Shown piece by piece: positions 1 through 30,098 of a stretch of 45,528 nt of DNA. The stretch comes from a virus. The number at the start of each line of letters is the position of its first letter. Position 1 is the stretch's first letter. The notes under the pieces are model-generated. The model was given only the letters and a program-made list of their open reading frames with translations. It was not told the origin of the DNA and made no database searches. The DNA is taken from the IMG/VR virus record IMGVR_UViG_3300009706_001403, positions 1 through 45,528 of that record; one strand, given 5' to 3'. Made by a program: the position numbers and the translations under genes.

Positions 1-1
1 A

Positions 2-835
2 GCGGCCGCCGAGAAATCAACTAAAGCAAGGCGTAGTTTAGGAATTGGTTATATTGGGTTAGCACATTATATAGCAAAGAATAAAGTTAAATATGATGAT
101 CCAGAAGCGTGGCAATTAGTAAATAAACTTACAGAATCATTTCAATATTATTTGTTAAAGTCTTCTAATGCTTTAGCCGTAGAAAAAGGCGCTTGTGAAT
201 ATTATGACAGAACTAAGTACGCCCAAGGGATTTTACCCATTGATACTTATAAACGCGATGTGGATGAAATTGTGGGTAGCGAATTATCTTGCGATTGGGA
301 GAAGTTACGTGAGGATATTAAGCAACATGGATTACGCCATTCGACGCTTTCGGCCCAAATGCCGTCAGAAAGTTCATCCGTCGTCAGCAACGAGACAAAC
401 GGGATCGAACCGCCAAGAGACTACATCTCAACAAAAAAATCCAAAAAAGGCCCGCTCAAACAAGTCGTCCCTGAATATTATCGTTTAAAGAATTTTTATA
501 CATTGCTATGGGATATGCCAAGCAACGATGGCTATATCAAGATAGTTGCAGTGATGCAAAAATATTTTGATCAAGCAATTAGTGGCAATTGGAGTTATAA
601 TCCATTGCATTATGAAGACAATCAAGTACCATTAAGTGTAATGGCTACAGATTTGTTACAAACTTACAAGTATGGCTGGAAAACATCTTATTATCAAAAC
701 ACTTATGATTTTAAAACAGATGATAGTGTTGAAGATGAAGAACCTGATGATATGCACATTGCTAGTGATCAACGTGGCTCGTATAAGAAAGTTATCGAAG
801 TTATCGACGAAGATTGCGATGCTTGTGTAATTTAA
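2..835 (+). CDS. nrdA: Ribonucleoside-diphosphate reductase class Ia alpha subunit, C-terminal part (5' end outside window)
   Basis: The frame is open from the first complete codon at position 2, so this is the last 277 codons of a longer gene and the ATG-like codons inside it are not starts. It aligns with the C-terminal third of E. coli NrdA: RRSLGIG, YAQGILPIDTYK, HGLRHSTLSAQMPSESSS, NGIEPPR and LLWDMP are all present. The SYYQNT motif carries the tandem tyrosines of the radical-transfer path, and the tail CDACVI supplies the CxxC pair that re-reduces the active site. NrdA reduces ribonucleoside diphosphates for phage DNA synthesis with NrdB, encoded 12 bp downstream. About 330-475 is visibly richer in G and C than the rest of the gene and contains a 25-nt word repeated at 38738-38762. 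Confidence 0.95.
   Translation, partial: AAAEKSTKARRSLGIGYIGLAHYIAKNKVKYDDPEAWQLVNKLTESFQYYLLKSSNALAVEKGACEYYDRTKYAQGILPIDTYKRDVDEIVGSELSCDWEKLREDIKQHGLRHSTLSAQMPSESSSVVSNETNGIEPPRDYISTKKSKKGPLKQVVPEYYRLKNFYTLLWDMPSNDGYIKIVAVMQKYFDQAISGNWSYNPLHYEDNQVPLSVMATDLLQTYKYGWKTSYYQNTYDFKTDDSVEDEEPDDMHIASDQRGSYKKVIEVIDEDCDACVI
451..475 (+). repeat. 25-nt direct repeat, copy in nrdA
   Basis: Positions 451-475 are identical to 38738-38762. In nrdA the word encodes part of GPLKQVVPEY. The match stops abruptly on both sides. Confidence 0.9.
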
Positions 836-847
836 GTAAGAGGAAAA

Positions 848-1948
848 ATGAAAACAGTTTTTAATAAAAAGAAGACCAACTTCGCCGAAGAACCTATGTT
901 TTTTGGGAGCGATCTTGCGATCCAACGGTTTGATGTATATAAGTATCCCATTTATGATAAGTTGACACAGACTCAACTGGGGTATTTTTGGAGACCAGAA
1001 GAAGTAAGTCTTCAAAAAGATAGAAATGATTTCCAAACTTTACGTGAGGAACATAAGTTTATCTTTACTAGCAATTTGAAATATCAAACATTGCTAGATA
1101 GTGTTCAAGGGCGCGGCCCAGCATTAGCATTTTTACCTCATGTTTCTCTACCAGAATTAGAAGCATGTATTATAACATGGGATTTCTTTGAAACAATCCA
1201 TAGTCGCAGTTATACATATATTATGAAGAATATATATTCTAATCCAGAAAAATTATTTGATAGTATATTGGATGACACGGCCATTATGAAAAGAGCATCT
1301 TCGGTTACAGAAAATTATGATAATTTTATTAATTATGCAGATGATTATAGAATAGGTAAGGGCACTCGTAAAGAACTTAAAAAGAGATTTTACTTAGCAT
1401 TACTTAATGTAAATATATTAGAAGGCATCCGTTTTTATGTTTCGTTTGCTTGCTCTTTTGCGTTTGGCGAACTTAAACTTATGGAAGGCTCTGCAAAAAT
1501 TCTGTCCTTAATTGCAAGGGATGAATCACAGCATTTGGCTATTACACAAAATATTATTAATACATGGCGCAAGAATCCCAAAGAGGATATCGAAATGACA
1601 CGTATTATGAAAGAATGTGAAGATGAAGTATATGCAATGTATGACAGAGCAGTTACTGAAGAAAAGGAATGGGCAAATTATCTATTTAAAAATGGTAGTA
1701 TGATTGGATTGAATGATATATTATTACACCAGTATATTGAATATATTACTAATCGTAGAATGCGAGCAATTGGTTTAGAAGCACGATATGATTATAGTAT
1801 GCAACATAATCCCTTACCATGGACACAGCATTGGTTAAGTAGTAAAGGATTACAAAACGCACCACAGGAAACAGAAATTGAAAGTTATCTTATTGGCGGA
1901 ATTAAGCAGGACATTGAGAAAGATACATTTAAGGATTTTAAACTGTAA
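848..1948 (+). CDS. nrdB: Ribonucleoside-diphosphate reductase class Ia beta subunit
   Basis: This 366-residue R2 protein matches E. coli NrdB almost position for position. Iron ligands are visible at Asp84 (LLDSVQGR), Glu115 and His118 (ETIHSRSY), Glu in LEGIRF and Glu/His in ARDESQH. The radical tyrosine is Tyr122. It should therefore be an active diiron-tyrosyl-radical subunit. The C-terminus (DFKL) resembles the tail that docks onto NrdA. The start has a good Shine-Dalgarno sequence (AGAGGA, 12 bp after nrdA). The stop codon overlaps the start of the ferredoxin gene (TAATG), so nrdA, nrdB and the ferredoxin form one operon. Class Ia RNR is common in T4-like phages. Confidence 0.97.
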   Translation: MKTVFNKKKTNFAEEPMFFGSDLAIQRFDVYKYPIYDKLTQTQLGYFWRPEEVSLQKDRNDFQTLREEHKFIFTSNLKYQTLLDSVQGRGPALAFLPHVSLPELEACIITWDFFETIHSRSYTYIMKNIYSNPEKLFDSILDDTAIMKRASSVTENYDNFINYADDYRIGKGTRKELKKRFYLALLNVNILEGIRFYVSFACSFAFGELKLMEGSAKILSLIARDESQHLAITQNIINTWRKNPKEDIEMTRIMKECEDEVYAMYDRAVTEEKEWANYLFKNGSMIGLNDILLHQYIEYITNRRMRAIGLEARYDYSMQHNPLPWTQHWLSSKGLQNAPQETEIESYLIGGIKQDIEKDTFKDFKL

Positions 1949-2256
1949 TGGTAAAAATATATGTTAAACTTGTTGATGGCAGTGAAAAAGAAATTGAGGC
2001 CGAAGTCGGCGATACAGTTAAAGATGCCATTGAATATGAATTGAGTCCGGACGATTGGGCTATGTGCGGCGGTTGTTTATGTTGTGCAACTTGTCATGTT
2101 TATGTAGAAAATGGAGACTATCCAGATATGGAAAAGTCTGAAGAGGCGGTACTAAAGGATTTAGGCGTCAACCAATTGGATAATTCTCGTTTAAGTTGTC
2201 AGATGGAAATTACAGATAGTAATGATGGCAACCATTTTACGGTTGCACCAAATTGA
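1948..2256 (+). CDS. [2Fe-2S] ferredoxin, YfaE-like, coupled to nrdB
   Basis: This 102-residue protein has the plant/adrenodoxin-type cluster motif CGGCLCCATCHVYV, giving the C-x5-C-x2-C pattern, and a distal ligand in RLSCQM. Two extra cysteines lie inside the loop. It starts on the TAATG overlap with nrdB. In enterobacteria, yfaE encodes a 2Fe-2S ferredoxin downstream of nrdAB that maintains the NrdB diferric-tyrosyl cofactor. By position and family this is the likely role here. It could also serve other redox enzymes in the window such as KorB or the radical SAM proteins. The fold and cluster type are secure; the partner is inferred. Confidence 0.9.
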   Translation: MVKIYVKLVDGSEKEIEAEVGDTVKDAIEYELSPDDWAMCGGCLCCATCHVYVENGDYPDMEKSEEAVLKDLGVNQLDNSRLSCQMEITDSNDGNHFTVAPN

Positions 2257-2271
2257 TTTTTATTGTATAAT
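2243..2271 (+). promoter_or_regulatory. Sigma70-like promoter before tRNA-Thr
   Basis: TTGCAC at 2243-2248 and TATAAT at 2266-2271 are separated by 17 bp. The predicted transcript begins about 20 nt before tRNA-Thr and could carry the tRNA genes, the two small ORFs and the glutamine synthetase gene. The -35 box lies inside the end of the ferredoxin gene. Confidence 0.55.
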
Positions 2272-2297
2272 AAGTAATATTATAGAAAACTGAATAT

Positions 2298-2373
2298 GCC
2301 CCTGTAGCTCAGTTGGTAGAGCAATGGTTTTGTAAACCATAGGTCGTTGGTTCGACTCCGACCGGGGGCTCCA
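2298..2373 (+). tRNA. tRNA-Thr (anticodon TGT)
   Basis: The cloverleaf is complete. The acceptor GCCCCTG pairs with CGGGGGC, the anticodon stem ATGGT/ACCAT encloses loop TTTGTAA, and the T arm GTTGG-TTCGACT-CCGAC is canonical. CCA is encoded. It reads ACA, a codon favoured in this AT-rich genome. Confidence 0.95.
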
Positions 2374-2393
2374 GTTTTAGGAGAAAGAAAAAT

Positions 2394-2570
2394 ATGTCTA
2401 CACATGATGACATTCAAAATTTAATAGAAACATATAAAGCAGAGTCTGCAAAATTTGAAGACAAAGGCGTTAAAGCATCTGCAGGTCGTGCAAGGAAAGC
2501 ACTTAGTGAACTCGGTAAGTTAACAAAAGTACGCCGAGCGGAAATACAAGAAAAGAAAAACAATATGTAA
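2394..2570 (+). CDS. Small basic protein resembling histone H1-like Hc1
   Basis: A 58-residue ORF begins at an ATG after a clear GGAGAAAG ribosome site, 20 bp past tRNA-Thr. The segment KFEDKGVKASAGRARKALSE followed by lysine/arginine-rich helix resembles the conserved N-terminal region of bacterial and chlamydial histone H1-like proteins (KG-K-A-RARKAL pattern). Those proteins bind DNA and compact nucleoids. If the resemblance holds, this is a small DNA-binding protein that might condense phage or host DNA. The sequence is short, so the assignment rests on one motif and the overall charge pattern. Confidence 0.6.
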   Translation: MSTHDDIQNLIETYKAESAKFEDKGVKASAGRARKALSELGKLTKVRRAEIQEKKNNM

Positions 2571-2584
2571 AGGAGGACTAAACT

Positions 2585-2692
2585 ATGTTAGAAACATTGT
2601 TTTGGGTCGCCGTAGGTCTTGTCGTTGGCTGGAATTTACTTCCACAACCAGCATGGGCAAAGGCACTATGGGACAAATGCACCGGTAAGTAA
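2585..2692 (+). CDS. Small single-pass membrane protein
   Basis: This 35-residue ORF has a very strong Shine-Dalgarno sequence (AAAGGAGG), 14 bp after the Hc1-like gene, which supports translation. The N-terminal half is one hydrophobic helix (LFWVAVGLVVGWNLL). It is followed by PQPAWAKALWDK. A similar arrangement, a glycine-tryptophan helix then PQP-W, occurs in the minus-strand gene at 21002-21304, so the two may be related. I do not recognise a function. It sits between tRNA-Thr and tRNA-Ala. Confidence 0.65.
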   Translation: MLETLFWVAVGLVVGWNLLPQPAWAKALWDKCTGK

Positions 2693-2697
2693 CCGAC

Positions 2698-2771
2698 GGG
2701 GGATTGGTGAAATGGGATCACGTGGCCTTTGCAAGGCTAAATTAAGAGTTCGACTCTCTTATTCTCCACCA
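2698..2771 (+). tRNA. tRNA-Ala (anticodon TGC)
   Basis: The acceptor GGGGGAT pairs with ATTCTCC and includes the G3-U70 wobble that is the alanine identity element. The anticodon stem TGGCC/GGCTA encloses TTTGCAA, the T arm is AAGAG-TTCGACT-CTCTT, and CCA is encoded. Confidence 0.94.
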
Positions 2772-2781
2772 ATTCTGCTGT

Positions 2782-2856
2782 GGGCCCTTAATTCAGCGGT
2801 AGAATGCCATCTTTACATGGTGGAAGTCGTTGGTTCGATTCCAACAGGGCCCACCA
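2782..2856 (+). tRNA. tRNA-Val (anticodon TAC)
   Basis: The acceptor GGGCCCT pairs perfectly with AGGGCCC. The anticodon stem CCATC/GGTGG encloses TTTACAT, and the T arm is GTTGG-TTCGATT-CCAAC. CCA is encoded. It lies 10 bp after tRNA-Ala and 22 bp before the glutamine synthetase start, so processing of the tRNA would free the enzyme mRNA. Confidence 0.94.
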
Positions 2857-2878
2857 CCATTTGCCTGGAGCAAACGAA

Positions 2879-3862
2879 GTGAAAATAAAAATTGAATATG
2901 TATGGCTAGACGGGTACAAGCCAGAACCATCGCTACGAAGTAAAATTAAAGTTGAAGATGCATGGACTGAGGATCAAGGCCCAAGTACGTGGTCATTTGA
3001 TGGTAGTTCAACTCAACAAGCATCAGGTAGTAAGTCTGATTGTTTATTAATGCCTGTGCAATTATATAATAATCCATTTTTACCTAATGCGTATATTGCA
3101 TTATGCGAAGTCTTAAACCCTGATGGTAGTCCACACGTAAGTAATACTCGGTGCCATTTAAATAATGATGATGATTGGTGGTTTGGATTTGAACAAGAAT
3201 ATGTGTTAGAAGTAAATAATCGTCCTATAGGGTTTCCTGATATTGGCTATCCAAAACCACAAGGAGATTTTTATTGTGGATCAGGCCCAAATAATGTAGC
3301 AGGTAGAGAAATTGCTGATGCACATTTAGAATTATGCTTAGAAGCAGGATTAAATATTACAGGAACTAATGCCGAAGTAATGATAGGCCAATGGGAATAT
3401 CAATGCTTCGGTGCAGGCGCAAAAAGAGCCTCAGATGATTTATGGGTTAGTAGATACATTATGCAACGCTTAACTGAACGTTATAATGTTAATTTTAATT
3501 TACATCCTAAACCTGTAGCAGGTGATTGGAATGGCAGTGGAATGCATACTAATTTTTCTAACAATGATACAAGGAATATTGGCGGCAAAGAAATGCTTAT
3601 TGAAATGTGTAAGAAATTGGAACAAAAGCATACCGCACATATTAATGCATATGGATCAAACAATGATATGCGTTTAACTGGTTTGCATGAAACACAGCAT
3701 ATTGACTCTTTTAGTTATGGTGTTAGCGATCGCGGAGCAAGCATACGTATTCCAATTGCAACAGCAGAGAATGAATGGAAGGGGTATTTAGAAGATCGCA
3801 GGCCTGCTTCGAATGCTGATCCGTATCAAGTTGTTAAAATCTTGATTGATACATTAAGTTAG
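2879..3862 (+). CDS. glnA: Glutamine synthetase, type II (eukaryotic-like)
   Basis: Glutamine synthetase makes glutamine from glutamate, ammonia and ATP. The protein shows GSII landmarks: WSFDGSST, DWWFGFEQEYVL, PQGDFYCG, TNAEVMIGQWEYQ, NGSGMHTNFS, RLTGLHET and SIRIP, ending EDRRPASNADPY. At 327 residues it is slightly shorter than typical GSII but keeps the catalytic regions. I place the start at GTG 2879, preceded by CTGGAG, because the longer frame from 2804 would read through tRNA-Val. The 3' end overlaps the opposing L33-like gene by 4 bp with no terminator visible. It probably raises glutamine supply for nucleotide synthesis, together with the PurM encoded at 13770. Confidence 0.95.
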   Translation: MKIKIEYVWLDGYKPEPSLRSKIKVEDAWTEDQGPSTWSFDGSSTQQASGSKSDCLLMPVQLYNNPFLPNAYIALCEVLNPDGSPHVSNTRCHLNNDDDWWFGFEQEYVLEVNNRPIGFPDIGYPKPQGDFYCGSGPNNVAGREIADAHLELCLEAGLNITGTNAEVMIGQWEYQCFGAGAKRASDDLWVSRYIMQRLTERYNVNFNLHPKPVAGDWNGSGMHTNFSNNDTRNIGGKEMLIEMCKKLEQKHTAHINAYGSNNDMRLTGLHETQHIDSFSYGVSDRGASIRIPIATAENEWKGYLEDRRPASNADPYQVVKILIDTLS

Positions 3863-6841: not shown

Positions 6842-6868
6842 ACTATTTACGCGATCGAAGTAAATAGT
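6842..6868. promoter_or_regulatory. Palindromic divergent late-type promoter pair
   Basis: ACTATTTAC, a 9-nt spacer, then GTAAATAGT form a perfect 9-bp inverted repeat. Each arm contains GTAAATA reading outward. The left arm sits 5 nt from the radical SAM ATG (6838, minus). The right arm is 36 nt from the PrkA ATG (6903, plus), which has its own GGGAG. The element could drive both operons, be an operator, or do both. Confidence 0.6.
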
Positions 6869-6902: not shown

Positions 6903-8849
6903 ATGACAATTTTTAAACAGTTCTTAGAAGACCAACTTAGTGGTCAAACTGAGTTTATAACCTTTGAAGAATATTTAGACTTATGTAAAAAGGATCCATT
7001 AACATATGCTAGTCCAGCGGAACGAATGATAAATGCAATCGGCGAACCAGAGTTTGTCGATACAAGTAAAGATTCGAGATTGTCTCGGATCTTTTTAAAT
7101 AAAACATTAAAAATTTACCCAGCATTCAAAGATTTTTATGGTATGGAAGATACTATCGAACGCATTGTTGGATATTTTAAACATTCAGCACAAGGATTAG
7201 AAGAACGTAAGCAAATTATATATTTGCTTGGGCCAGTAGGCGGCGGCAAATCAAGTCTTGCTGAAACCCTTAAGGAATTAATGCAAAAATATCCTATCTA
7301 TACTTTAGTTGCAGAGGGAGAGCATAAAGATAATATATCTCCAGTTTTTGAATCACCTCTAGGATTATTTGATCCTGATAAGTATGCAAAAACATTAGAA
7401 AAAGACTACGGAATTGATAAAAGATATATAAATGGTTTAATGAGCCCATGGGCTATTAAACGACTAAAAGAATTTGGTGGGGATGTTAGCAAGTTTAAAA
7501 TTGCTAAAATTATACCAAGCAGGTTAGAGCAGATCGCTATTGTTAAAACAGAACCAGGCGATGAGAATAATCAAGATATTAGTGCATTGGTTGGCAAAAC
7601 TGATATTCGTATGCTAGAGCATTTTAGTCAAAACGATACAGACAGTTATAGTTATAGTGGTGCATTGTGTAGAGGCAACCAAGGACTTATGGAATTTGTT
7701 GAAATGTTTAAAGCACCAATTAAAGTGCTACATCCACTACTAACTGCTACACAAGAGGGTAACTATATTGGTACAGAAGGTATTAGTGCAATTCCATTTA
7801 ACGGCATTGTGTTAGCACATAGTAACGAGGCCGAATGGCAAACATTTAAAAACAATAAAAACAACGAAGCCTTTATTGATAGAATTTGTGTAGTTAAAGT
7901 TCCTTATTGCTTGCGAGCAGACGAGGAAGTTAAAATTTATGATAAGATGCTTGATTCATCTGGTTTAGATGTTTCAAAATGTGCGCCAGAGACATTAAAT
8001 ATGTTAGCACGGTTTGGTATACTAACACGATTGCGTGAACATGAAAACAGTTCACTATATAGTAAGATGAGAATATACAATGGTGAGAACATTAAAGATA
8101 CTGATCCAAAAGCAAAGAGTATGCAGGAGTATAGAGATGTGGCCGGAGTCGATGAGGGCATGGCTGGAATCTCAACACGTTTTGCTTTTAAAACTTTATC
8201 TAAAACATTTAACTTTGATACAGATGAAGTTGCGGCAGACCCGATCCATTTACTGTATGTCCTTGAGGATAGCATTAAGCGTGAACAGTTTGCGAAAGAA
8301 AAAGAAGATTTGTGTATTGAATTTATTAAAGACTATTTAAGTCCTAAGTATGCTGAGTTTATTGGAAACGAAATCCAAAAAGCATATTTAGAAAGTTATA
8401 GTGACTATGGACAAAATTTGTTTGATCGTTATATTGAATATGCAGATGCCTGGATTCAAGAAATAGACTTTAAAGATCCAGATACAGGTAATTTGTTTGA
8501 TCGTGATGTGCTTAATGAGGAATTAGAAAAGATTGAAAAACCTGCAGGTATAGCAAATCCCAAAGACTTTCGTAATGAAGTTGTCAATTTTGTGATTCGT
8601 GCTAAAGCAAAAGGCAAAGGTAAGAATCCAAAATGGTCAAGTTATGAAAAACTACGTGAAGTAATCGAGAAGAAAATGTTTGCTTCAACTGAAGAACTGT
8701 TACCAATTATTAGTTTTTCGACTAAGGGTAACAAGGACGATCAGAAGAAGCATAATGACTTTGTAGAGAGGATGGAGAGCAAGGGATATACTGGTAGGCA
8801 GGTCAGGAGATTGGTCGAGTGGTACATGAGAGTTCAGAAGAGCAGTTAA
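6903..8849 (+). CDS. prkA: PrkA/YeaG-family AAA-like serine protein kinase
   Basis: The 648-residue protein is collinear with E. coli YeaG (about 644 residues). It has the N-terminal region with SPAERM-NAIGEPE, a Walker A LGPVGGGKSSL near residue 110, the FFGMED-like F-GMEDTIE, EFVEMFKAP, LLTATQEGNY and ALIDRI-like FIDRICVVKVPY, and a C-terminal PrkA domain. YeaG is a kinase that, with YeaH, supports survival under nitrogen starvation in E. coli; Bacillus PrkA affects sporulation. I start at 6903 because GGGAG is 6-7 nt upstream; the in-frame ATG at 6888 has no site. The stop overlaps the YeaH start (TAATG), and SpoVR follows. Confidence 0.95.
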   Translation: MTIFKQFLEDQLSGQTEFITFEEYLDLCKKDPLTYASPAERMINAIGEPEFVDTSKDSRLSRIFLNKTLKIYPAFKDFYGMEDTIERIVGYFKHSAQGLEERKQIIYLLGPVGGGKSSLAETLKELMQKYPIYTLVAEGEHKDNISPVFESPLGLFDPDKYAKTLEKDYGIDKRYINGLMSPWAIKRLKEFGGDVSKFKIAKIIPSRLEQIAIVKTEPGDENNQDISALVGKTDIRMLEHFSQNDTDSYSYSGALCRGNQGLMEFVEMFKAPIKVLHPLLTATQEGNYIGTEGISAIPFNGIVLAHSNEAEWQTFKNNKNNEAFIDRICVVKVPYCLRADEEVKIYDKMLDSSGLDVSKCAPETLNMLARFGILTRLREHENSSLYSKMRIYNGENIKDTDPKAKSMQEYRDVAGVDEGMAGISTRFAFKTLSKTFNFDTDEVAADPIHLLYVLEDSIKREQFAKEKEDLCIEFIKDYLSPKYAEFIGNEIQKAYLESYSDYGQNLFDRYIEYADAWIQEIDFKDPDTGNLFDRDVLNEELEKIEKPAGIANPKDFRNEVVNFVIRAKAKGKGKNPKWSSYEKLREVIEKKMFASTEELLPIISFSTKGNKDDQKKHNDFVERMESKGYTGRQVRRLVEWYMRVQKSS

Positions 8850-10228
8850 TGACCAAGTACATAATTGATCGTCGCCTCAATCCAAAAGGTAAAAGTATAT
8901 CTAACCGACAACGGTTTATACGAAGGGCCAAAAAACATCTTACGGAGAGAGTACGCAAAAATGTAGTCGATCGTTCTATTACAGATAAGAACGAAGAAAA
9001 GATTAGTATTCCAACGGATGGAATACGTGAGCCTACATTCGGAACAGACCATAAAACAGGCAAACACGATTTTGTATTGCCAGGTAATAAAGAGTTTTTA
9101 CCGGGAGATACAATTCCAAAACCTAAAGCCGGCCAGGGCGCCGGCGGCGGCGGCGAGGCCAGCGATGACGGAGAAGGGGAAGATGAGTTTGCTTTTAGTT
9201 TAACCCGAGATGAATATTTAGATGTAGTTTTTGAAGATCTTGAATTGCCTGATCTTGAAGAAAAGAATAGAGAAGATGTAACAGTATGGGAATCACAACG
9301 TGCTGGATATACACCAGTAGGTAGCCCAAGCCAACTTAATATTGAACAAAGTATGATAAGAAGTATTGGCCGCAGGATTGCATTAAAAACACCAAAAACA
9401 AAAGAGATAGAACGGCTCGAGCACGAAATAGAACAACTTGAGGAAGCAATAAAACATTATAAAGATGATATTAAGTCTATAACTAAAAATAAGGCTTTGA
9501 TCAAACAATTACAAAAAGAAATAGACGGATTACGTAGAAGACGTAGAGCAATCCCTTTTGTAGATCCAATAGATTTGCGTTTTAATAATTTTATTAAAAA
9601 ACCTAAACCAACTACTACAGCCGTAATGATATGCATTATGGATGTTAGTGCAAGTATGGGAGAAAGAGAAAAGGAATTGTCAAAGAGATTTTTCTTATTA
9701 TTATATTTGTTTTTAGAAAGAAAATATGAGAAAGTTGATGTAGTGTTTATAAGACATCATACAACAGCGATAGAATGTTCTGAAGAGGAGTTTTTTCAAA
9801 GCAAAGAAACGGGCGGCACAATTGTAAGTAGTGGCATTGAGTTAGCAGGAAAAATCCTTAAAGAACGTTATCCAGCATCAGATTGGAATGCTTATATTGC
9901 ACAAGCAAGTGATGGGGATAATTTTACAAGTGATCTGCCCGTTTTAGAAGATATCTTAGTTAAACAAATTTTACCAATAGTTAAGTTTTATACTTATGTT
10001 GAGATTGCTGGCTTATATGAACAACAACGAGGTTTCTGGAATACAAGCACCGGCCGTAGCGGTATGTGGCAATTATATGAAGGACTGCATAACACTTGGG
10101 GCAACCTTGTTAGTAAACGTGTTGCAGAAGCAGGAGAAATTATTCCAGTGTTTAGAGAATTCTTTTCGAAAGTTAATTCAGGTCCAATATCAGCATTAAC
10201 AAAAGACCCCGAAAAGGAAATATTATAA
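8849..10228 (+). CDS. yeaH: YeaH/YhbH family protein (DUF444, vWA-like)
   Basis: The 459-residue protein starts MTKYIIDRRLNPKGKS, equivalent to the E. coli YeaH N-terminus. It has a glycine-rich linker around residues 93-105 and the block EDEFAFSLTRDEYLDVVFEDL. A charged coiled coil (about 190-240) is followed by a von Willebrand-like domain with the MIDAS sequence MDVSASMGE, then YIRHH-like FIRHHT, ETGGTIVSSG and QASDGDN. YeaH works with the PrkA/YeaG kinase, probably as a partner or adaptor. The start at 8849 overlaps the prkA stop by one base, and the stop overlaps the SpoVR start. An upstream in-frame ATG at 8819 lies inside prkA and is not needed. Confidence 0.96.
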   Translation: MTKYIIDRRLNPKGKSISNRQRFIRRAKKHLTERVRKNVVDRSITDKNEEKISIPTDGIREPTFGTDHKTGKHDFVLPGNKEFLPGDTIPKPKAGQGAGGGGEASDDGEGEDEFAFSLTRDEYLDVVFEDLELPDLEEKNREDVTVWESQRAGYTPVGSPSQLNIEQSMIRSIGRRIALKTPKTKEIERLEHEIEQLEEAIKHYKDDIKSITKNKALIKQLQKEIDGLRRRRRAIPFVDPIDLRFNNFIKKPKPTTTAVMICIMDVSASMGEREKELSKRFFLLLYLFLERKYEKVDVVFIRHHTTAIECSEEEFFQSKETGGTIVSSGIELAGKILKERYPASDWNAYIAQASDGDNFTSDLPVLEDILVKQILPIVKFYTYVEIAGLYEQQRGFWNTSTGRSGMWQLYEGLHNTWGNLVSKRVAEAGEIIPVFREFFSKVNSGPISALTKDPEKEIL

Positions 10229-11736
10229 TGGTTCGTCCTCTTTATACAGGTTCAGAATGGAATTTTGAAATGCTTGAAGATGTATATAATGCATGTGAAA
10301 CCATTGCATTTGAAGATCTTAAATTAAACATATACCAAAATCAATTAGAGGTTATCTCTTCAGAACAAATGCTTGATGCATATTCTAGTTCAGGTCTACC
10401 AATTTATTATAAGCATTGGAGTTTTGGCAAACATTTTTCTTCTGAAGAACAAAATTATAGAAAAGGTTATACTGGGTTAGCATATGAGATTGTTATTAAT
10501 AGTAATCCTTGCATTAATTACTTAATGGAAGAAAATACTATAACAACTCAAACAACAGTTATTGCACACGCCGCGTTTGGACATAATCACTTTTTCAAGA
10601 ATAATTATTTGTTTAGACAATGGACCGATGCTTCACATATTATGGACTATCTTATTTTTGCTAAAAATTATCTATATGATTGTGAACAACGGTATGGAGC
10701 AGACATTGTTGAGAAATTATTAGATAGTTGTCATGCTTTAAGTAGACATGGCATTAGTAGATATAAACGTCCAGTAAAATTAAATTTCTTCGAAGAAACA
10801 CAACGCAAAGAAGAGCGCGATGAATATTTAAAAAGCATTTATAATGATTTATGGCGTACACTTCCAAAAACTAAAAAGCAAGAAAAAAAGAAACACGATG
10901 TTGCGTTCTCCGATCCAGAGGAAAATATATTATATTTTATTGAAAAGAACTCTCCCATTTTAGAATTATGGCAGAGAGAAGTAGTACGTATTGTAAGAAA
11001 AATATCACAATACTTTTATCCACAGTATCAAACTAAAGTAATGAATGAAGGCTGGGCAGTGTTCTCACACTTCTTTATTATGAATCGTTTATACGATAAA
11101 GGTTTACTTACTGACGGCGCAATGTTAGAATTTATACATACACATAGTGGTGTGTTATATCAACCATCATTTGATAATCAAAGATATAATGGATTCAATC
11201 CTTATTACTTGGGATTTGAAATGTTTAGAGATATTAAACGTATTTGTGACAACCCAACAGCAGAAGATAAAGAATGGTTTCCAGATTTTGCTGGTAGTAA
11301 TTGGCTTGAAACTTGTTTATATGCAGTCGAAAATTATAGAGATGAATCATTTATTAGGCAGTTTTTGAGTCCTACACTGATCCGAAAAATGAAACTGTTT
11401 GTTCTTAATAACAATTCAGATAAAGATCATTATCGAGTTGAGCATATACATAACCGACAAGGTTATAAAAATGTTCGGACGTCGCTTGCAAGCCAATACG
11501 AAATTGGTAATATGTTGCCAGATATCCAAGTGTATGATGCAAACTTTAAAGGTGATAGAATGTTAATGTTACATCACAATGTACAAAGTGGTAAATTACT
11601 TAGTAAAGAAACTGATGATGTTTTAAAACATGTTAAAAGATTGTGGGGATATCAAGTTAAATTAGAAAGCCGCCAAAATGGTTTGTTAATAAAAGCATTT
11701 AGTACGGATGCAGAGCCTCAATTAAAGATTGAGTAA
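10228..11736 (+). CDS. spoVR: SpoVR family protein (YcgB-like)
   Basis: The 502-residue protein is close in length to E. coli YcgB (510). It has the family blocks YSSSGLPIYYKHWSFGKHF, YEIVINSNPCINYLMEEN, HAAFGHNHFFKNN and NEGWAVFSHFFIM-RLYDKG. It ends in the IEHVHN-like VEHIHNRQGY region. SpoVR is needed for spore cortex formation in Bacillus; in Gram-negatives its gene often accompanies prkA and yeaH and belongs to stress and stationary-phase programmes. The biochemical activity is not established. It starts on the yeaH stop (TAATG), and the dehydrogenase gene follows after 12 bp with GGGAGAAGG, so all four genes are one operon. Confidence 0.96.
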   Translation: MVRPLYTGSEWNFEMLEDVYNACETIAFEDLKLNIYQNQLEVISSEQMLDAYSSSGLPIYYKHWSFGKHFSSEEQNYRKGYTGLAYEIVINSNPCINYLMEENTITTQTTVIAHAAFGHNHFFKNNYLFRQWTDASHIMDYLIFAKNYLYDCEQRYGADIVEKLLDSCHALSRHGISRYKRPVKLNFFEETQRKEERDEYLKSIYNDLWRTLPKTKKQEKKKHDVAFSDPEENILYFIEKNSPILELWQREVVRIVRKISQYFYPQYQTKVMNEGWAVFSHFFIMNRLYDKGLLTDGAMLEFIHTHSGVLYQPSFDNQRYNGFNPYYLGFEMFRDIKRICDNPTAEDKEWFPDFAGSNWLETCLYAVENYRDESFIRQFLSPTLIRKMKLFVLNNNSDKDHYRVEHIHNRQGYKNVRTSLASQYEIGNMLPDIQVYDANFKGDRMLMLHHNVQSGKLLSKETDDVLKHVKRLWGYQVKLESRQNGLLIKAFSTDAEPQLKIE

Positions 11737-11748
11737 GGGAGAAGGCAA

Positions 11749-12774
11749 ATGGCCATGATAATTAAAGACATTGCCACCGATGGATATGAACGTATAGTAC
11801 GAGTAATTAATGAAAGTGCTAAACTAGATTGTATCATTGCTGTACACAATATAAGACTTGGTCCAAGCCTTGGGGGTGCCCGATTCTGGGCATTTGATAA
11901 TATCGAACAACAACTAACAGATGCTAAACGTTTGGCCGAAGGTATGACATATAAAAATAGCATCTGTGGAATTAATTTCGGCGGCGGCAAAGCAGTTATT
12001 AATTCTAATTATTGTAATGGTGAAAAAACTCCGGAATTATATAAAGCCTTCGGCGAAGCAGTTCATGAATTAGGTGGTATCTATGTTACAGCCGGCGATG
12101 TTGGAACATTACATACAGATCTATTAAATATAAAAGAAACAACAGAATTCGTAGGTGGTATTGAAATTGAAAGCAGTATTCCTACAGCCATTGGGGTTTT
12201 CAACGCTATGAAAGCAACTTCGGCATATATGCATGACGACGATATGAATTTCGACGGTATGCATTTTTGTATTAGTGGTGTGGGAAAAGTAGGAGGTACA
12301 TTAGCCAGATTATTGTTTAACGATGGCGCAAGAATAACGGTTGCTGATGTTAATGCAACAGCCATTGAGAATCTTACTGATATACTTTTCGATACAATAG
12401 ATATCAACTTGGCCCATACTGTTAAGTGTGACTATTTTAGTCCATGTGCTCTAGGAAATGTGTTAAATGCAGAAACACGTAGTAATTTAAACTGTTCTGC
12501 AATTGTAGGTGCGGCCAATAATCAATTAGATAACGAAGAAACAGATCAATGGTTATTTAATAATAAGATTGTTTATGCACCTGATTATCTTGTAAATAGC
12601 GGCGGCGTAATTTCTATAGCCGCTGAAATTGAAAATACAGAGGATAACATTGATAAAGCATTAGATGAAATTGCTAATAAAACATTTGAAGTTATCCAAA
12701 GTAGTAATGAGAGGGGCGTTTCGACGGATAAAATTAGTAAAGAATTAGCGTGGGAACGCATAAACAAAGGTTGA
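11749..12774 (+). CDS. Leucine dehydrogenase-type Glu/Leu/Phe/Val dehydrogenase
   Basis: These enzymes oxidatively deaminate amino acids with NAD, releasing ammonia and a 2-oxoacid. The 341-residue protein has the leucine-dehydrogenase N-terminal signature LGPSLGGARFW, catalytic Lys69 and Lys81 (MTYKN and GGGKAVI) and Asp117 (TAGDVGT). The Rossmann fold follows as GVGKVGG, ending with Asp in ITVAD, and NSGGVIS comes near the C-terminus. The residues resemble leucine rather than glutamate dehydrogenase, but substrate choice cannot be settled by eye. It is the last gene of the prkA-yeaH-spoVR operon. Freed ammonia could feed the glutamine synthetase encoded at 2879. A sigma70-like -35 box overlaps its stop codon. 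Confidence 0.93.
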   Translation: MAMIIKDIATDGYERIVRVINESAKLDCIIAVHNIRLGPSLGGARFWAFDNIEQQLTDAKRLAEGMTYKNSICGINFGGGKAVINSNYCNGEKTPELYKAFGEAVHELGGIYVTAGDVGTLHTDLLNIKETTEFVGGIEIESSIPTAIGVFNAMKATSAYMHDDDMNFDGMHFCISGVGKVGGTLARLLFNDGARITVADVNATAIENLTDILFDTIDINLAHTVKCDYFSPCALGNVLNAETRSNLNCSAIVGAANNQLDNEETDQWLFNNKIVYAPDYLVNSGGVISIAAEIENTEDNIDKALDEIANKTFEVIQSSNERGVSTDKISKELAWERINKG

Positions 12775-12799
12775 CAGATAGTTAAGATAATGTTATACT
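12771..12799 (+). promoter_or_regulatory. Sigma70-like promoter
   Basis: TTGACA (12771-12776), 17 bp, then TATACT (12794-12799). It overlaps the dehydrogenase stop codon and drives the small membrane-protein gene at 12881. Confidence 0.75.
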
Positions 12800-12809
12800 T
12801 TTGTTAATT

Positions 12810-12855
12810 TATGTAATAATTACATAGATAGTTAACTTATGAATATGTAAGTTAA
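12810..12855 (+). promoter_or_regulatory. Two tandem inverted repeats in a 5' UTR
   Basis: TATGTAAT-A-ATTACATA (12810-12826) is followed by TTAACTTA, 8 nt, TAAGTTAA (12832-12855). Both have 8-bp perfect arms and lie between the promoter at 12771 and the ATG at 12881. They could be operators for a dimeric repressor or mRNA hairpins. Confidence 0.5.
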
Positions 12856-12880
12856 GAATATAATAAAACAGGAGAAAGTT

Positions 12881-13114
12881 ATGGATTGGCTTGATAGTAT
12901 TAGAGGTTGGGCCCGCGCCATCACAGATTTAGGAGTTGTAGCGATTGCATTAGTTGTTGTGCTACAAGTTCTATTCGGCGGCGCAGGGGTACCATTCTTT
13001 TCGGGTATGGACGTAGTCGGTAATATTACCGGCTTAGTTAGTTCCCTAGGCTCCCAGGGACTTGTTGGCTTAGTTGCCGTTGCAGTTCTATACTGGGCCT
13101 TCACTAAAGATTAA
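12881..13114 (+). CDS. Small two-helix membrane protein
   Basis: The 77-residue protein has two hydrophobic helices (about residues 17-35 and 58-73) separated by a glycine/serine-rich loop. The N-terminus is charged (DSIRGWARAITD) and the C-terminus is short. Its ribosome site is AGGAGAAAG. The gene is a single-gene unit with a strong sigma70 promoter, a structured leader and a terminator at 13157. The size and topology fit a class II holin-like or another pore or membrane-modifying protein, but there is no family motif. A strong host-type promoter suggests early, high expression, which argues against a lysis role. Confidence 0.75.
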   Translation: MDWLDSIRGWARAITDLGVVAIALVVVLQVLFGGAGVPFFSGMDVVGNITGLVSSLGSQGLVGLVAVAVLYWAFTKD

Positions 13115-13156
13115 GTGGAGAAGTAATCGGTGTATCCTAGGTGTACATAATAGAAG

Positions 13157-13185
13157 ATGGATGTGCTGAGCACATCCATTTTTTA
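13157..13185 (+). terminator. Rho-independent terminator
   Basis: A perfect 10-bp stem, ATGGATGTGC with GCACATCCAT around loop TGA, is followed by a T run. It ends the transcript of the 12881 gene. Confidence 0.92.
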
Positions 13186-13225: not shown

Positions 13226-13786
13226 ATGGTAGTAAATTATAACGCTCGGCACGTAATGATTGATATTGAGTGCCTCGGAACCGGAGATATGCCAGTTGTC
13301 TTGTCTATTGGAATTATTAAATTTAACCCATGGCACGACTATCGTGGTATGCCTATTGAATCATTAAATACAAAATATTTAAGGCCATCACTTGAAAGTT
13401 GTCAAGAGATTGGTTGCGATATTGATGACGATACTTTAGACTGGTGGGCAAAGCAGGACTCGGTTGTATTAGATGAAGCATTTAATAATGAAGGACGAAT
13501 TTCTGTACGTAAATCATTGCGAGAATTATATAGGTATTGTATTGGATGTACCCATTATTGGGGGCACGGTGCTCAATTTGATTATGGGATACTAGAACAT
13601 ATTGCCGTTAAATTGGAACGAGGAGTTCCGTGGCGATTTTATCAAGTACGTGATTCACGTACAGTGTTTGATATGGCTAACCCTGATCGGCCTACGGAGT
13701 TACAACATCATGCTTTATATGATTGCTTGAGTCAAATTATTGGTGTACAGAATGTATACAGGAAATTAAATGTCAGAGACGTATAA
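13226..13786 (+). CDS. dexA: DEDDh 3'-5' exonuclease, DexA-like
   Basis: The 186-residue protein has the ExoI motif MIDIECLGTG with Asp13 and Glu15, an internal WWAKQD segment as in T4 DexA relatives, and YWGHGAQFDYGIL as ExoII. HALYDCL supplies the ExoIII histidine and aspartate. These are the metal-binding residues of RNase T/DexA-type exonucleases. T4 DexA degrades DNA 3' to 5'. The start codon lies about 6 nt from a sigma70 -10 box and no Shine-Dalgarno sequence is present. The 3' end overlaps purM by 17 bp. Confidence 0.88.
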   Translation: MVVNYNARHVMIDIECLGTGDMPVVLSIGIIKFNPWHDYRGMPIESLNTKYLRPSLESCQEIGCDIDDDTLDWWAKQDSVVLDEAFNNEGRISVRKSLRELYRYCIGCTHYWGHGAQFDYGILEHIAVKLERGVPWRFYQVRDSRTVFDMANPDRPTELQHHALYDCLSQIIGVQNVYRKLNVRDV

Positions 13787-14687
13787 AGATGCCGGCGTTG
13801 ATATAGAAAAAGCAAACGAACTAGTAAAACATTTAGGCATAGAAGGATTCGGCGCTCTTATTAATCTAGGAAATATTTGTCTTGTATTAAGTACAGACGG
13901 CGTCGGCACAAAGTTACTCATAGCAGAGGAATTAAAGAAGTATGACACAATTGGGATTGACCTTGTGGCTATGTGTGTTAATGACATTCTTTGTCATGGC
14001 GCATTACCTCTTGCATTTCTAGATTATTATGCGACGGGTAAATTAAATTTAGAAAAAAGTAAAGAAATATTGTCTGGTATTCAAAGAGGTTGTGAAATAG
14101 CCGGATGTAAATTAGTTGGCGGCGAAACAGCAGAGATGCCAGGATTGTATGAAGGTGAACATTTTGATCTTGCTGGATTTTGTGTAGGTGCTGTTGTAAG
14201 AAAAAATTCTGATTACTTGTATATTATTCCACGAGATGATATTAAGTCAGGGGATGTTCTTATAGGAATACCAAGTTCGGGCCCGCATAGTAATGGGTTT
14301 AGTCTTATACGTAAATTATATAAGGATAATAATTTAGAATATGATAAGATGTGTTTGAAGCCAACTAGAATATATGTTGATGATTTTTCACATAATTGGC
14401 AATTCATTAAAGCGGCCGCACATATAACAGGGGGAGGAATACATGGAAACCTTCCAAGAGTTTTGCCGAGTTATTGTGATTATAAATTATATGACAAATT
14501 TGATATTCCTGTTCGTTTATCATCATGGTGGAAAGAATTGTATCATATGTCCAAGTTAAATAGATATGAATTTGAAAGTATTTTTAACTGCGGTTGGGGA
14601 ATGATACTTGTAGTTGATAAAATGAGTGTTGATCAATTAGTGGATTTAGAAGACGCCGAAGTTATAGGCGAAATTACAGAGAGATAG
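13770..14687 (+). CDS. purM: Phosphoribosylaminoimidazole (AIR) synthetase
   Basis: PurM converts FGAM to AIR with ATP in purine synthesis. The 305-residue protein shows the family blocks STDGVGTKLLIA, GIDLVAMCVNDILCHGA, FLDYYATGKL, LVGGETAEMPG, DVLIGIPSSGPHSNGFSLIRK, AHITGGG and FNCGWGM. It is about 40 residues shorter than typical bacterial PurM, mostly in the C-terminal half, but retains the catalytic regions. T4-like cyanophages also carry purM. It overlaps the exonuclease gene, and its TAG stop abuts tRNA-Arg directly, so the tRNA is probably cut from the mRNA. Purine synthesis would draw on the glutamine made by the phage glutamine synthetase. Confidence 0.95.
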   Translation: MSETYKDAGVDIEKANELVKHLGIEGFGALINLGNICLVLSTDGVGTKLLIAEELKKYDTIGIDLVAMCVNDILCHGALPLAFLDYYATGKLNLEKSKEILSGIQRGCEIAGCKLVGGETAEMPGLYEGEHFDLAGFCVGAVVRKNSDYLYIIPRDDIKSGDVLIGIPSSGPHSNGFSLIRKLYKDNNLEYDKMCLKPTRIYVDDFSHNWQFIKAAAHITGGGIHGNLPRVLPSYCDYKLYDKFDIPVRLSSWWKELYHMSKLNRYEFESIFNCGWGMILVVDKMSVDQLVDLEDAEVIGEITER

Positions 14688-14773: not shown

Positions 14774-15322
14774 ATGATAGAGAGTTTTATATACGTAGGA
14801 CGAGAATCCTTAGAGATGATGTTTTTGACCTTAATGGTCACAACTGCAATTACAGTTGATAAAAGAATATATGCCTCGGCTATATTTGGAATGCTATGTG
14901 GTTTGGCGGGAGGCTTTGCGTTAGGAGAGTTGTTAGAAAATTACGAGGTATTAATGTATGCTATGTTAAGTGCATTAATGATTTACTTGTTCCTTACTAG
15001 TGCAAATTTGCCAGCACATATTAAAGGACATGTTGATGCTATTGCTAATCGTAATACAGCAGGTATGGTAGGGTATTTTGTAATATGGTTTATATACTTT
15101 AGAGAAAGTATGGAAGTGTTTGCATTTATGTTTCAAGCAGTTAATAATAATGTAGAAGGCTGGACAGGCGCCGCATTAGTAGTAATTGTTGTTGCTAGTC
15201 TTTATAAATGGTTAACAAATTATAAGGATACTAAAACATTATTTACAGCAACACGTTATGCCTTTTTAGTATTTGCTATATGGTTTGGATATGAAGCATT
15301 AGAACATGCACATATATTATAA
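14774..15322 (+). CDS. Compact FTR1/EfeU-like iron permease
   Basis: The 182-residue hydrophobic protein has about six membrane helices. Two helices carry RExxE motifs: RESLE at residues 10-14 and RESME at 110-114. FTR1/EfeU permeases have paired REGLE-type motifs in helices 1 and 4 that bind and conduct iron. The repeat spacing fits a duplicated three-helix unit. Typical members are about 270 residues or more, so this is a reduced form. No partner oxidase (EfeO/EfeB) is visible nearby. If functional it would import ferric iron, or another metal, into the cytoplasm to supply the many Fe-S and diiron proteins encoded in this window. The family call rests mainly on the RExxE pair. Confidence 0.7.
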   Translation: MIESFIYVGRESLEMMFLTLMVTTAITVDKRIYASAIFGMLCGLAGGFALGELLENYEVLMYAMLSALMIYLFLTSANLPAHIKGHVDAIANRNTAGMVGYFVIWFIYFRESMEVFAFMFQAVNNNVEGWTGAALVVIVVASLYKWLTNYKDTKTLFTATRYAFLVFAIWFGYEALEHAHIL

Positions 15323-16206: not shown

Positions 16207-18312
16207 ATGAAAGACTTAAACAAATATAGAAATATAGGAATTTTTGCTCATGTAGACGCAGGTAAAACCACGACTACTGAACGTATTCTTAAACTTACAG
16301 GAAAGATCCACAAAATTGGTGAAGTCCATGACGGCGCCGCAACCACAGACTTTATGGAGCAAGAGCAAGAGCGAGGCATTACTATTCAAAGTGCCGCGAC
16401 TACTTGCTACTGGAATGATTATCAGTTAAACATTATAGATACTCCCGGTCACGTAGACTTCACTATTGAAGTCTACCGTTCCCTTAAAGTACTTGACGGT
16501 GGTATTGGTGTATTTTGTGCAAGTGGCGGCGTAGAGCCACAGTCAGAAACTAATTGGCGTTATGCTAACGATAGTGAAGTAGCACGTATTATATACGTTA
16601 ATAAAATGGATAGAGTTGGTGCTAATTTTAATCGTGTTATAGCACAAATAAAAACACGGCTTGGAGCGAAGCCGTTAGTTATGACATATCCAATCGGAGT
16701 CGAAGATACCTTTGTAGGTGTAATTGATATACTTACACAGAAGGCTTGGATATGGTCCGATCCGACTGACCCAACTTCTTATACTATAACTGACATCCCA
16801 GATGATAACGTACCCAATGAAAAAACAAGTGACAAGTACACATACAAAGAAATGGCAAAACAATATTATGATATATTAGTTGAGACAGTTGTTGAACAAG
16901 ATGACGAAGTTATGATGCAATGGATGGACGATCCAGATTCGATTAGTATTGAAGATTTAAAAATGTGTATACGCAAAGGTACTAATACATGTGAATTCTT
17001 TCCAACATATTGTGGCAGTTCATTTAAAAATAAAGGTGTACAAAACATATTAAATGCTGTGGTAGATTATTTGCCTAATCCAACTGAAGTTAATCCACAA
17101 CCAGAAGTAGATGAGAAAGGTGAAGCAACTGGTGAAGTTGCTATAGTGGATCCAGAAAGTCCATTAAGAGCACTTGCATTTAAAATAATGGAAGACAAAT
17201 ATGGCGCTTTAACTTTTATTAGAATATATTCTGGCCAAATAAAAAAAGGTGATTCGATATTAAATTCTTTCACACAAAAGAAAGAACGCATTGGGCGTAT
17301 TGTTGAAATGCATGCCGACTCTCGAGAAGAAATAAACAATGCCCAAGCAGGAGACATTGTAGCATTACTTGGAATGAAAAATGTACAAACAGGACATACT
17401 CTTTGTGATGTAAACAAGCCAGCAACTTTAGAACCAATGGTATTCCCAGATCCAGTTATCAGTATAGCAATTGAACCAAAGACACAAAGCGACATGGAAA
17501 GATTAGGAACTGCTATTGGTAAGATGGTACAAGAGGATCCGTCCTTTCATGTAGAAACAGATATAGAATCTGGACAAACAATACTTAAAGGTATGGGTGA
17601 ATTGCATTTAGATATTAAATGCGATATATTGAAACGCACACATGGTATAGAAGTTAGCGTTGGTAAACCACAAGTTGCATATAGAGAAACGATTACAAGA
17701 ACAATAGAAGACAGGTACATACATAAAAAGCAAACAGGTGGTGCAGGCCAATTTGCTGATATAGAATATATAATTGAGCCATTAGAACAAGGTGAAGGGT
17801 TTGTATTCGAAAGTAAAGTTATTGGAGGGAATGTTCCGCGAGAGTTTTTTCCAGCAATAGAAAAAGGATTTAAACAATCAGGACAATGTGGTGTATTAGC
17901 AGGCTATCCAATGCTTGATTATAAAGTAACATTAATAGATGGTTCTAGTCACCAGGTTGACAGTAGTGCAGTAGCATTCCAGCTCGCCGCCATGGCCGGA
18001 TACAGACAATCTATTCCTAAAGCCAGGCCGCAATTACTTGAACCAATAATGTTAGTTAATGTGTTTTGCCCAATAGATAAGGTAGGAGATGTTATTGGTG
18101 ATCTCAATAGTCGTAGAGGAATGATTAAAAATCAAGATATGCAAGGTACTATGGTTCGCATTGAGGCCGATTTACCATTAGGAGAGATGTTTGGATATAT
18201 TGGTGACTTGCGTGGGATGACATCCGGCCGTGGCCAATATAGTATGGAATTCTCACATTATGCGCCTGCTCCGAAGCATATTGCAGAAGTTATTATTAAG
18301 ACACAGGCATGA
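16207..18312 (+). CDS. fusA: Translation elongation factor G, full length
   Basis: EF-G drives ribosomal translocation and, with RRF, recycling. The 701-residue protein is complete. G1 AHVDAGKT is at residues 14-21, G2 RGITI at 56-60, G3 DTPGH at 78-82, G4 NKMD at 132-135, and G5-like GSSFKNKG is also present. Domains II to V follow, including [51 protein letters not shown] with the conserved domain IV histidine, RRGMI and [21 protein letters not shown]. No decay is visible. It is coupled to algH and followed by tRNA-Asn. It might replace a host EF-G that has been shut down or modified. EF-G on a T4-like phage is unusual in my knowledge. Confidence 0.98.
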
Positions 18313-18415: not shown

Positions 18416-19051
18416 ATGTTAAAGTATAAAAGATTTTATATATTAGTGTTTATAAGTTCTGTTTTGCTATTTTTAGTTCCCGTTGCATTTGCTGAATCGT
18501 TGTCTCCGAGATATAACGATCCAAAGCAATTAATTGAAGATGTTATGTATGATGTAATATATACAATACGTACAGATCGCGAGCGTTATGAAAATAATGA
18601 TGAAGAAGTATATAAGTTAGTTAAGCGGAAAATAATGCCACATGTTGATGTTCGTAAAATGTCTAAGATTGTACTTGCACGACATTGGCGTCAAATGACT
18701 ATTGAGCAACAAACTGAATTTATGTACTTATTCGAAACTATAACAACAAGATCATATGCTGTGTATATATTAGAATATAAAGATAGTTATTCATTGCATT
18801 TTAAGCGAACTATATATCATAATAATGGGGAACGTGCAGTAGTTCATATGATATTAAAATTAGAACAAAATAGAGAAGTAGATACTAGATTTGCTTTATA
18901 TCAATCTCCAACTGCAATAGACAAATGGAAAATATATAATTTATCTATCGAAGGGATTAATTTTGGAATTGTATATAGAAGTACATATAGTAGTGTTATT
19001 AGACAGAGTGGAATTGAGGGATTGTTAGATAAAATGAGACAAAAATTATGA
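18416..19051 (+). CDS. mlaC: MlaC/Ttg2D-like periplasmic phospholipid-binding protein
   Basis: MlaC carries phospholipids between the outer-membrane MlaA complex and the inner-membrane MlaFEDB transporter. The 211-residue protein has a signal peptide with predicted cleavage after VAFA (residue 26). The family pattern follows: VYKLVKRKIMPHVDVRKMSKIVLARHWRQMT-EQQ-EF, then YAVYILEY and VHMILKLEQN. It ends with KWKIYNLSIEGINFGIVYRSTYSSVIRQSGIEGLLDKM. The last block closely follows the MlaC C-terminus. Its length is normal for the family. No other mla genes are visible, so it must act with host components or alone. The stop overlaps the next start (ATGA). Confidence 0.88.
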   Translation: MLKYKRFYILVFISSVLLFLVPVAFAESLSPRYNDPKQLIEDVMYDVIYTIRTDRERYENNDEEVYKLVKRKIMPHVDVRKMSKIVLARHWRQMTIEQQTEFMYLFETITTRSYAVYILEYKDSYSLHFKRTIYHNNGERAVVHMILKLEQNREVDTRFALYQSPTAIDKWKIYNLSIEGINFGIVYRSTYSSVIRQSGIEGLLDKMRQKL

Positions 19052-21405: not shown

Positions 21406-21413
21406 TATAAATA
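21406..21413 (+). promoter_or_regulatory. Consensus T4 late promoter TATAAATA, leaderless geometry
   Basis: The full octamer TATAAATA ends 5 nt before the ATG at 21419, without a Shine-Dalgarno sequence. It heads the zinc-ribbon/Fe-S carrier/ferredoxin cluster. Confidence 0.75.
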
Positions 21414-30090: not shown

Positions 30091-30098
30091 TATAAATA
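30091..30098 (+). promoter_or_regulatory. Consensus T4 late promoter TATAAATA
   Basis: TATAAATA lies directly after the clamp-loader stop. The next ATG (30116) has GAGGTG 4-5 nt upstream, so this gives a short leadered mRNA. Confidence 0.7.

Follow-up and report, generated by a model that had tools for sequence, protein, structure and literature searches.

Why should a phage carry an intact bacterial stress module, and what would such a module do during infection? The question is raised by a 45.5-kb linear fragment (45,528 nucleotides) of the virus record IMGVR_UViG_3300009706_001403, referred to below as the window, that is, the whole stretch of DNA that was analysed. At 6903–12774 it encodes PrkA, YeaH (DUF444), SpoVR and an enzyme of leucine-dehydrogenase type (LeuDH), all in unbroken frames. 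PrkA-YeaH-SpoVR is widely present in bacteria. We found that these three genes are carried as a unit by dozens of mostly large phages, among them large tailed T4-like phages. The four genes of the window are laid out as follows:

6903–8849, + strand: PrkA/YeaG, an AAA+ ATPase with a PrkA C-terminal domain (Pfam AAA_PrkA and PrkA; Walker A GPVGGGKS)
8849–10228, + strand: YeaH/YhbH, a DUF444 vWA-type protein (Pfam DUF444)
10228–11736, + strand: SpoVR/YcgB (Pfam SpoVR and SpoVR_C)
11749–12774, + strand: leucine/valine-type amino-acid dehydrogenase of the ELFV family, 341 aa (Pfam; PDB relatives)

The initial annotation had described an intact stress module with TAATG overlaps, followed by an amino-acid dehydrogenase, and this description is borne out by the Pfam scores, the unbroken frames and both junctions. 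PrkA matches PF08298 (575 bits) and PF06798 (241 bits) far over the cut-offs, YeaH matches PF04285 (DUF444; 518 bits), SpoVR matches PF04293 (537 bits) and SpoVR_C (75 bits), and LeuDH matches PF02812 and PF00208 (~69 bits each). TAATG overlaps join PrkA to YeaH (start at 8849) and YeaH to SpoVR (start at 10228). The end of SpoVR and the start of LeuDH (11749) are separated by 12 bp, and LeuDH has its own strong ribosome site, GGGAGAAGG. The PrkA frame is open from 6888, and its start is most likely 6903, because the protein of the related locus L002 also begins with MTI and GGGAG lies just upstream. The overlaps are what suggests co-transcription. The claim of one apparent promoter was not upheld: a sigma-70 scan of the region returned 29 candidates against 29.6 expected, and none was listed in the 64-bp gap upstream of PrkA.

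Three genes kept together in viral genomes

Viral contigs were scanned with PrkA as query (137 relatives) and, independently, with SpoVR (126 relatives), and the best 80 of each were kept. The order PrkA-YeaH-SpoVR is complete in 142 of the 159 resulting viral loci; of the remainder, several are short loci or are truncated by the end of the contig. After removal of near-copies, the three families are found in 62–64 of 66 non-redundant loci, with the next commonest neighbour family in 11; the presence of PrkA and SpoVR is partly by construction, as both served as queries, and that of YeaH, like the adjacency, is not. This constancy, set against the rarity of other neighbours, indicates that the conserved unit is exactly PrkA, YeaH and SpoVR, in changing surroundings. 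Among the 50 module-bearing records searched whole, TerL scored over the cut-off in 18 and gp23 (the T4-type capsid protein) in 16, and both occur in large records, for example those of 322,647, 342,181, 362,810 and 578,292 bp. The 635-kb ‘huge phage’ record LR745206 also has PrkA, YeaH and SpoVR in order. Synteny on other viral contigs, by which the initial annotation had proposed that the locus be judged, is found on many contigs for the three-gene order and on one other contig for the four-gene set.

Related sets are present in isolated phages. The cultured Thermus phages phiYS40, phiLo and Lalka8 encode DUF444, SpoVR and PrkA proteins, and the scanned copies score over the Pfam cut-offs; the phiYS40 record annotates SpoVR and a ‘serine kinase’. 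These phages differ from the window in gene order (vWA-SpoVR-PrkA), are ~23–37% identical to it over the matched parts, and form a separate lineage. The isolated 344-kb Ralstonia jumbo phage RsoM2USA (MG752970) encodes SpoVR as ORF28 and PrkA as ORF30 (PMC8504454), with one ORF number falling in the 1.36-kb gap between them, which would fit YeaH. It differs from the window in that no LeuDH is reported beside these genes, and its authors placed the two under separate functions, not in a module (PMC8504454). The proposal that the four-gene set is new to phages stands in part: only one other collinear contig has it, but its three-gene part is already present in the Thermus phages and, partly, in RsoM2USA. 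Enterobacter phage LAU1 (MN688132.1, locus L250) was rejected as a precedent; its yeaG-yeaH pair sits at the edge (1–3308) of a lambda-like record and is probably the chromosomal flank of a prophage, made up of non-phage genes.

The literature has recorded single members of the set. In oxygen-minimum-zone viromes, spoVR is reported to be the most abundant viral ‘sporulation’ gene and was taken as a means of host-state manipulation (PMC8940887); that study gives single-gene counts, without PrkA/YeaH partners or a mechanism (PMC8940887). PrkA and SpoVR go unmentioned in the jumbo-phage reviews and surveys PMC13282480 and PMC13037316, PrkA and SpoV genes in PMC9123017, and PrkA in PMC7162821 and PMC7824862. 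In the open-access literature we found no description of PrkA-YeaH-SpoVR as a phage module and nothing on a phage leucine dehydrogenase.

To what extent are these genes viral rather than borrowed from a host? In the sampled Pseudomonadota, the bacterial module of stress and sporulation genes (yeaG-yeaH/prkA-yhbH-spoVR) has the same families in the same order, with all three in the fetched flanks (~6 kb) of 65 of the 80 loci. The window shares with it the motor and MIDAS residues and the adjacency of the three families on one strand; it differs in its tight TAATG overlaps followed by LeuDH, and the phage copies form deep clades of their own. In quick trees, for which the 80 bacterial sequences closest to the query were sampled, almost exclusively from Pseudomonadota, the viral/bacterial label changes twice for PrkA and three times each for SpoVR and YeaH, against means of 32–39 after shuffling. 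The window’s nearest relatives are the viral loci L002, L003, L083 and L085 in all three trees. The few label changes and the recurrence of the same viral neighbours therefore indicate that the three genes have long travelled together within viruses.

Further evidence is that the closest relatives are viral (85%, against 69–70% for the best bacteria). The independent 48-kb contig G001, which carries locus L002, is collinear with the window: the four genes and more than 12 other window genes match, most of them in order. Between the window and L002, nonsynonymous divergence (dN) lies far below a near-saturated synonymous divergence (dS) for all four genes, with dN/dS values of 0.11/1.6 for PrkA, 0.20/1.5 for YeaH, 0.18/1.7 for SpoVR and 0.34/1.5 for LeuDH. 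The GC content at third codon positions (GC3) of the four genes, 0.21–0.26, is that of the phage background. The bacterial-type families of its proteins, and a KorB gene elsewhere in the window with foreign composition (GC3 0.51), might raise the suspicion that the region derives from a host or from a chimeric assembly. Such an origin is exceedingly unlikely given the phage-like GC3 and the viral nearest relatives, and the presence of all four genes on an independent collinear contig refutes it for 6903–12774. The trees, the composition and the collinear contig together exclude that the region is a chimera or was recently inserted from a host, in agreement with the earlier reading of the module as phage-borne.

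The KorB-like gene itself (2-oxoacid:ferredoxin oxidoreductase beta subunit, 38957–39976) has a GC content of 0.50 and a GC3 of 0.51, against a background of ~0.35 and 0.24. It is absent between Clp and lysozyme in G001, and no alpha subunit to it was noticed in the window. It was either inserted recently or placed there by an error of local assembly.

A predicted remodelling machine

The residues and predicted folds of the three proteins suggest how they might act. PrkA is predicted to be an AAA+ ring protein that comes nearest to NorQ by fold comparison: for its AlphaFold2 (AF2) model, VIA placed NorQ and NorQ-NorD(vWA) on top (Z 12.8, root-mean-square deviation (rmsd) 4.6, 238 aligned), with CbbQ also near. 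Its Pfam family is AAA_PrkA, not MoxR. K121, R241 and K435 of the window protein correspond to K116, R232 and K426 of E. coli YeaG (numbering mapped through a Klebsiella YeaG) and are invariant in a 39-sequence alignment; YeaG needs these three residues in vivo (PMC4664914). In-vitro kinase activity of E. coli YeaG comes from an earlier study cited in PMC4664914. PrkA of B. anthracis oligomerises with ATP and has no detectable kinase or protease activity (PMC13001217), because of which the kinase label is weak and the name ‘PrkA kinase’ is doubtful for the window protein.

YeaH retains a metal ion-dependent adhesion site (MIDAS) in full: D263, S265, S267, T322 and D353 (DxSxS...T...D; numbered by the first sequence of the YeaH alignment) are invariant in 32 sequences and are kept in the Thermus phages. 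A complete MIDAS is a signature of the vWA adaptors that partner such AAA+ motors. In E. coli, deletions of yeaG and yeaH give the same phenotype (PMC4664914).

In SpoVR, H114, G118, H119, E274, G275, A277 and H281 are invariant in 46 sequences, E274 lying in a NEG.A motif, and H114, H119 and E274 are retained in the Thermus phage protein at ~23% identity. When the AF2 model of SpoVR was compared in VIA, all 50 listed matches were of gluzincin type (M1, M2/ACE, M32, M30, DUF885 and others). The best of them, a DUF885 protein included, reached Z 13.0 (rmsd 3.9, 200 aligned) and 11.6 (rmsd 3.9, 195 aligned). Metal binding by SpoVR is what the model and these residues would suggest.

Based on these features, we propose that PrkA, YeaH and SpoVR would form one ATP-driven protein-remodelling machine in the style of the MoxR-type AAA+/vWA systems NorQ-NorD and CbbQ-CbbO. 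In it, an oligomeric PrkA would supply the AAA+ motor and YeaH would act as vWA adaptor, engaging the substrate through its MIDAS metal site; SpoVR would be the effector, binding metal in a gluzincin-like fold. The phage would express the module from one overlapping operon during a probably long lytic cycle, and the machine would act on host proteins, remodelling or inactivating them, to keep the cell tolerant of stress and growing little while it continues to supply virion production. LeuDH, co-transcribed by position, would be a lineage-specific metabolic add-on; it would convert branched-chain amino acids to oxo-acids or back, releasing or taking up ammonium. Taken as a whole, from the machine through the host remodelling to the LeuDH add-on, we give this explanation a little less than an even chance; both the complex of the three proteins and its effect on the host are what we infer. 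The MoxR systems resemble the PrkA/YeaH pair in combining an AAA+ motor with a vWA partner, and the MoxR/vWA pair of group 2.2 jumbo phages (PMC7824862), which also has a metallopeptidase domain, is similar to the module in composition. They differ in belonging to sequence families other than AAA_PrkA and DUF444, and SpoVR is a separate protein without HExxH.

Several points weigh against this proposal. Many other AAA+ proteins score within 1 Z of the NorQ match, and the Foldseek order for PrkA starts with Clp, Mg-chelatase and Lon. For SpoVR, a Z of 13 is close to the chance level that helical models can reach, Foldseek with the SpoVR model gave no significant E-value, and comparison with PDB sequences, profile search included, gave no match. 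The HExxH motif is also missing; the window reads HAAFGH, and no Glu follows the first His in any of the 46 sequences. The catalytic Glu of HExxH being absent and the Foldseek E-values not significant, SpoVR would therefore be at most a non-canonical gluzincin member, that is, a metal-binding effector or pseudo-peptidase that has kept putative metal ligands. Finally, the effect on host state is drawn by analogy from bacterial genetics only.

The main rival reading places the module in virion production, as a machine that folds or processes capsid or tail proteins. It owes this rank to Lalka8, whose gene order is portal, minor head, vWA, SpoVR, PrkA, TerL, so that the set sits between portal/minor head and TerL, beside packaging genes. 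The phiYS40 module likewise lies near the terminase, and virion assembly is the role proposed for a MoxR/vWA-metallopeptidase pair in group 2.2 jumbo phages (PMC7824862). However, in T4-like records with all three genes a distance of tens to hundreds of kb usually separates the module from TerL/gp23, with G011 and, not as clearly, a few more records as the exceptions; in the window it stands among metabolic and translation genes, and its bacterial relatives are unconnected with virions. We therefore consider a role in virion assembly possible and, on balance, unlikely. Host-protein remodelling is favoured because the bacterial homologues act in stress survival and the module is mostly far from structural genes.

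A further alternative is that the module silences growth-arrest defences of the host, with the phage copy stopping toxins that would abort the infection. Repression of two E. coli toxin-antitoxin systems, mqsRA and dinJ-yafQ, depends on YeaG (PMC4664914), and the module is widely retained in phages; however, the E. coli effect, observed under starvation and not during infection, could be an indirect one, and no single gene family often recurs beside the module. Silencing of toxin-antitoxin systems is thus conceivable, less supported than the remodelling of host proteins, and in our view very improbable. We offer a more general form of the remodelling proposal as tentative and open to considerable doubt: PrkA-YeaH-SpoVR would be a distinct AAA+/vWA machine with SpoVR as its non-canonical, metal-binding, gluzincin-fold effector, and would serve as a standard infection tool in at least two unrelated phage lineages, independently of sporulation or nitrogen stress.

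Leucine dehydrogenase and the nitrogen question

LeuDH has the motifs GGGK, MTYKN, GDVGT and GxGKVG at residues 66, 78, 116 and 177 (catalytic Lys and Asp; NAD site). Its best PDB relatives are the leucine dehydrogenases 3vpx and 1leh (E ~1e-62), with tryptophan dehydrogenase close (1e-56). LeuDH stands beside the module only in the window and in G001 (loci L002/L082; 58% identical, same place), and in none of the 80 bacterial loci within the fetched flanks. In 398 sampled genomes, the best bacterial relatives found do not exceed 43% identity over the aligned part, which suggests that this gene, too, probably entered phages some time ago. In two other module-bearing lineages, ELFV dehydrogenases 31–34% identical to that of the window are encoded far from the module, and these look like separate gains. 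LeuDH was accordingly rejected as part of the general module, which it adjoins in one relative only. Given its absence from the bacterial loci, its rare adjacency and its low bacterial identity, the four-gene set is most likely a phage-made, lineage-specific extension and not a captured bacterial operon.

The initial annotation had read the four genes as setting a nitrogen-starvation-like or nitrogen-scavenging state, and ammonium from LeuDH could then be captured by a phage glutamine synthetase. A glutamine-synthetase-family gene (2804–3862; Pfam Gln-synt N and C) is indeed present on the contig with LeuDH. Its true start is probably near 2880, and the first codons of its open reading frame overlap a tRNA-Val. 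The idea also draws on the activity of yeaGH in sustained nitrogen starvation (PMC4664914) and on the four-gene order maintained in L002. However, yeaGH is a general stress operon, with low pH, osmotic stress and stationary phase among its other triggers (PMC4664914), and LeuDH could run in either direction. LeuDH adjoins the module in two contigs only, most module-bearing phages are without LeuDH in the available DNA, and a tblastn comparison with the G001 fragment found no glutamine synthetase. A starvation-like or nitrogen-scavenging state is thus a possible extrapolation from E. coli, with less support than host-protein remodelling, and we regard it as improbable.

Surroundings and meaning of the module

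Two further features flank or accompany the four genes:

6843–6867, no strand: perfect inverted repeat CTATTTAC-N9-GTAAATAG, within the 64 bp that separate a divergent radical-SAM gene from PrkA
16207–18312, + strand: full-length EF-G, a context gene outside the module, which in the close phage clade is found near it more often than any other partner

The inverted repeat occurs once in the window, with none expected in shuffles, and was not seen in the upstream region of L002; it is a possible operator. EF-G lies downstream of SpoVR in L002 and in L005–L015. A T4-type late promoter 5′ of the operon was rejected as a candidate, as TATAAATA occurs in the window only at 21406–21413 and 30091–30098. 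With 2 copies against an expected 9.8, this T4 late-promoter motif is far rarer than chance would give, and each copy falls in a gap that precedes a + strand gene, as a real late promoter would. At 12771–13180, right after LeuDH, a near-consensus promoter (TTGACA-17-TATACT) is followed by a short open reading frame and a + strand hairpin with a T run, which seem to form a small independent transcription unit bounding the operon.

Viral genes on the contig include ribonucleotide reductase, a clamp loader, ligase, PhoH (recognised by eye from its translation), and virion and tail-fibre proteins. EF-G, a Clp ATPase, DnaJ and peptide deformylase (the last also by eye from its translation) are encoded as well. 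Neither a terminase nor gp23 was seen among the scanned open reading frames of the window, which is itself a fragment. Host-like cargo is present at 13770–14687, 14774–15322, 19048–19392 and 21607–22292: PurM was assigned by Pfam, and an FTR1-like iron permease, two IscA/ErpA-type proteins and a ferredoxin by eye.

The gene families described here are old, and phage copies of them have been annotated before; what seems new is the recognition of the three genes as a phage module. That many phages keep the three as a unit suggests that they act jointly and are useful within one infection, and phage fitness would thus provide a new assay for the old question of what the module does. Viral spoVR in environmental surveys should, with due caution, not be taken for a sporulation gene. 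The fold leads, namely a NorQ-like motor, a MIDAS adaptor and a gluzincin-like SpoVR, may turn a set of ‘unknown stress genes’ into a testable remodelling machine.

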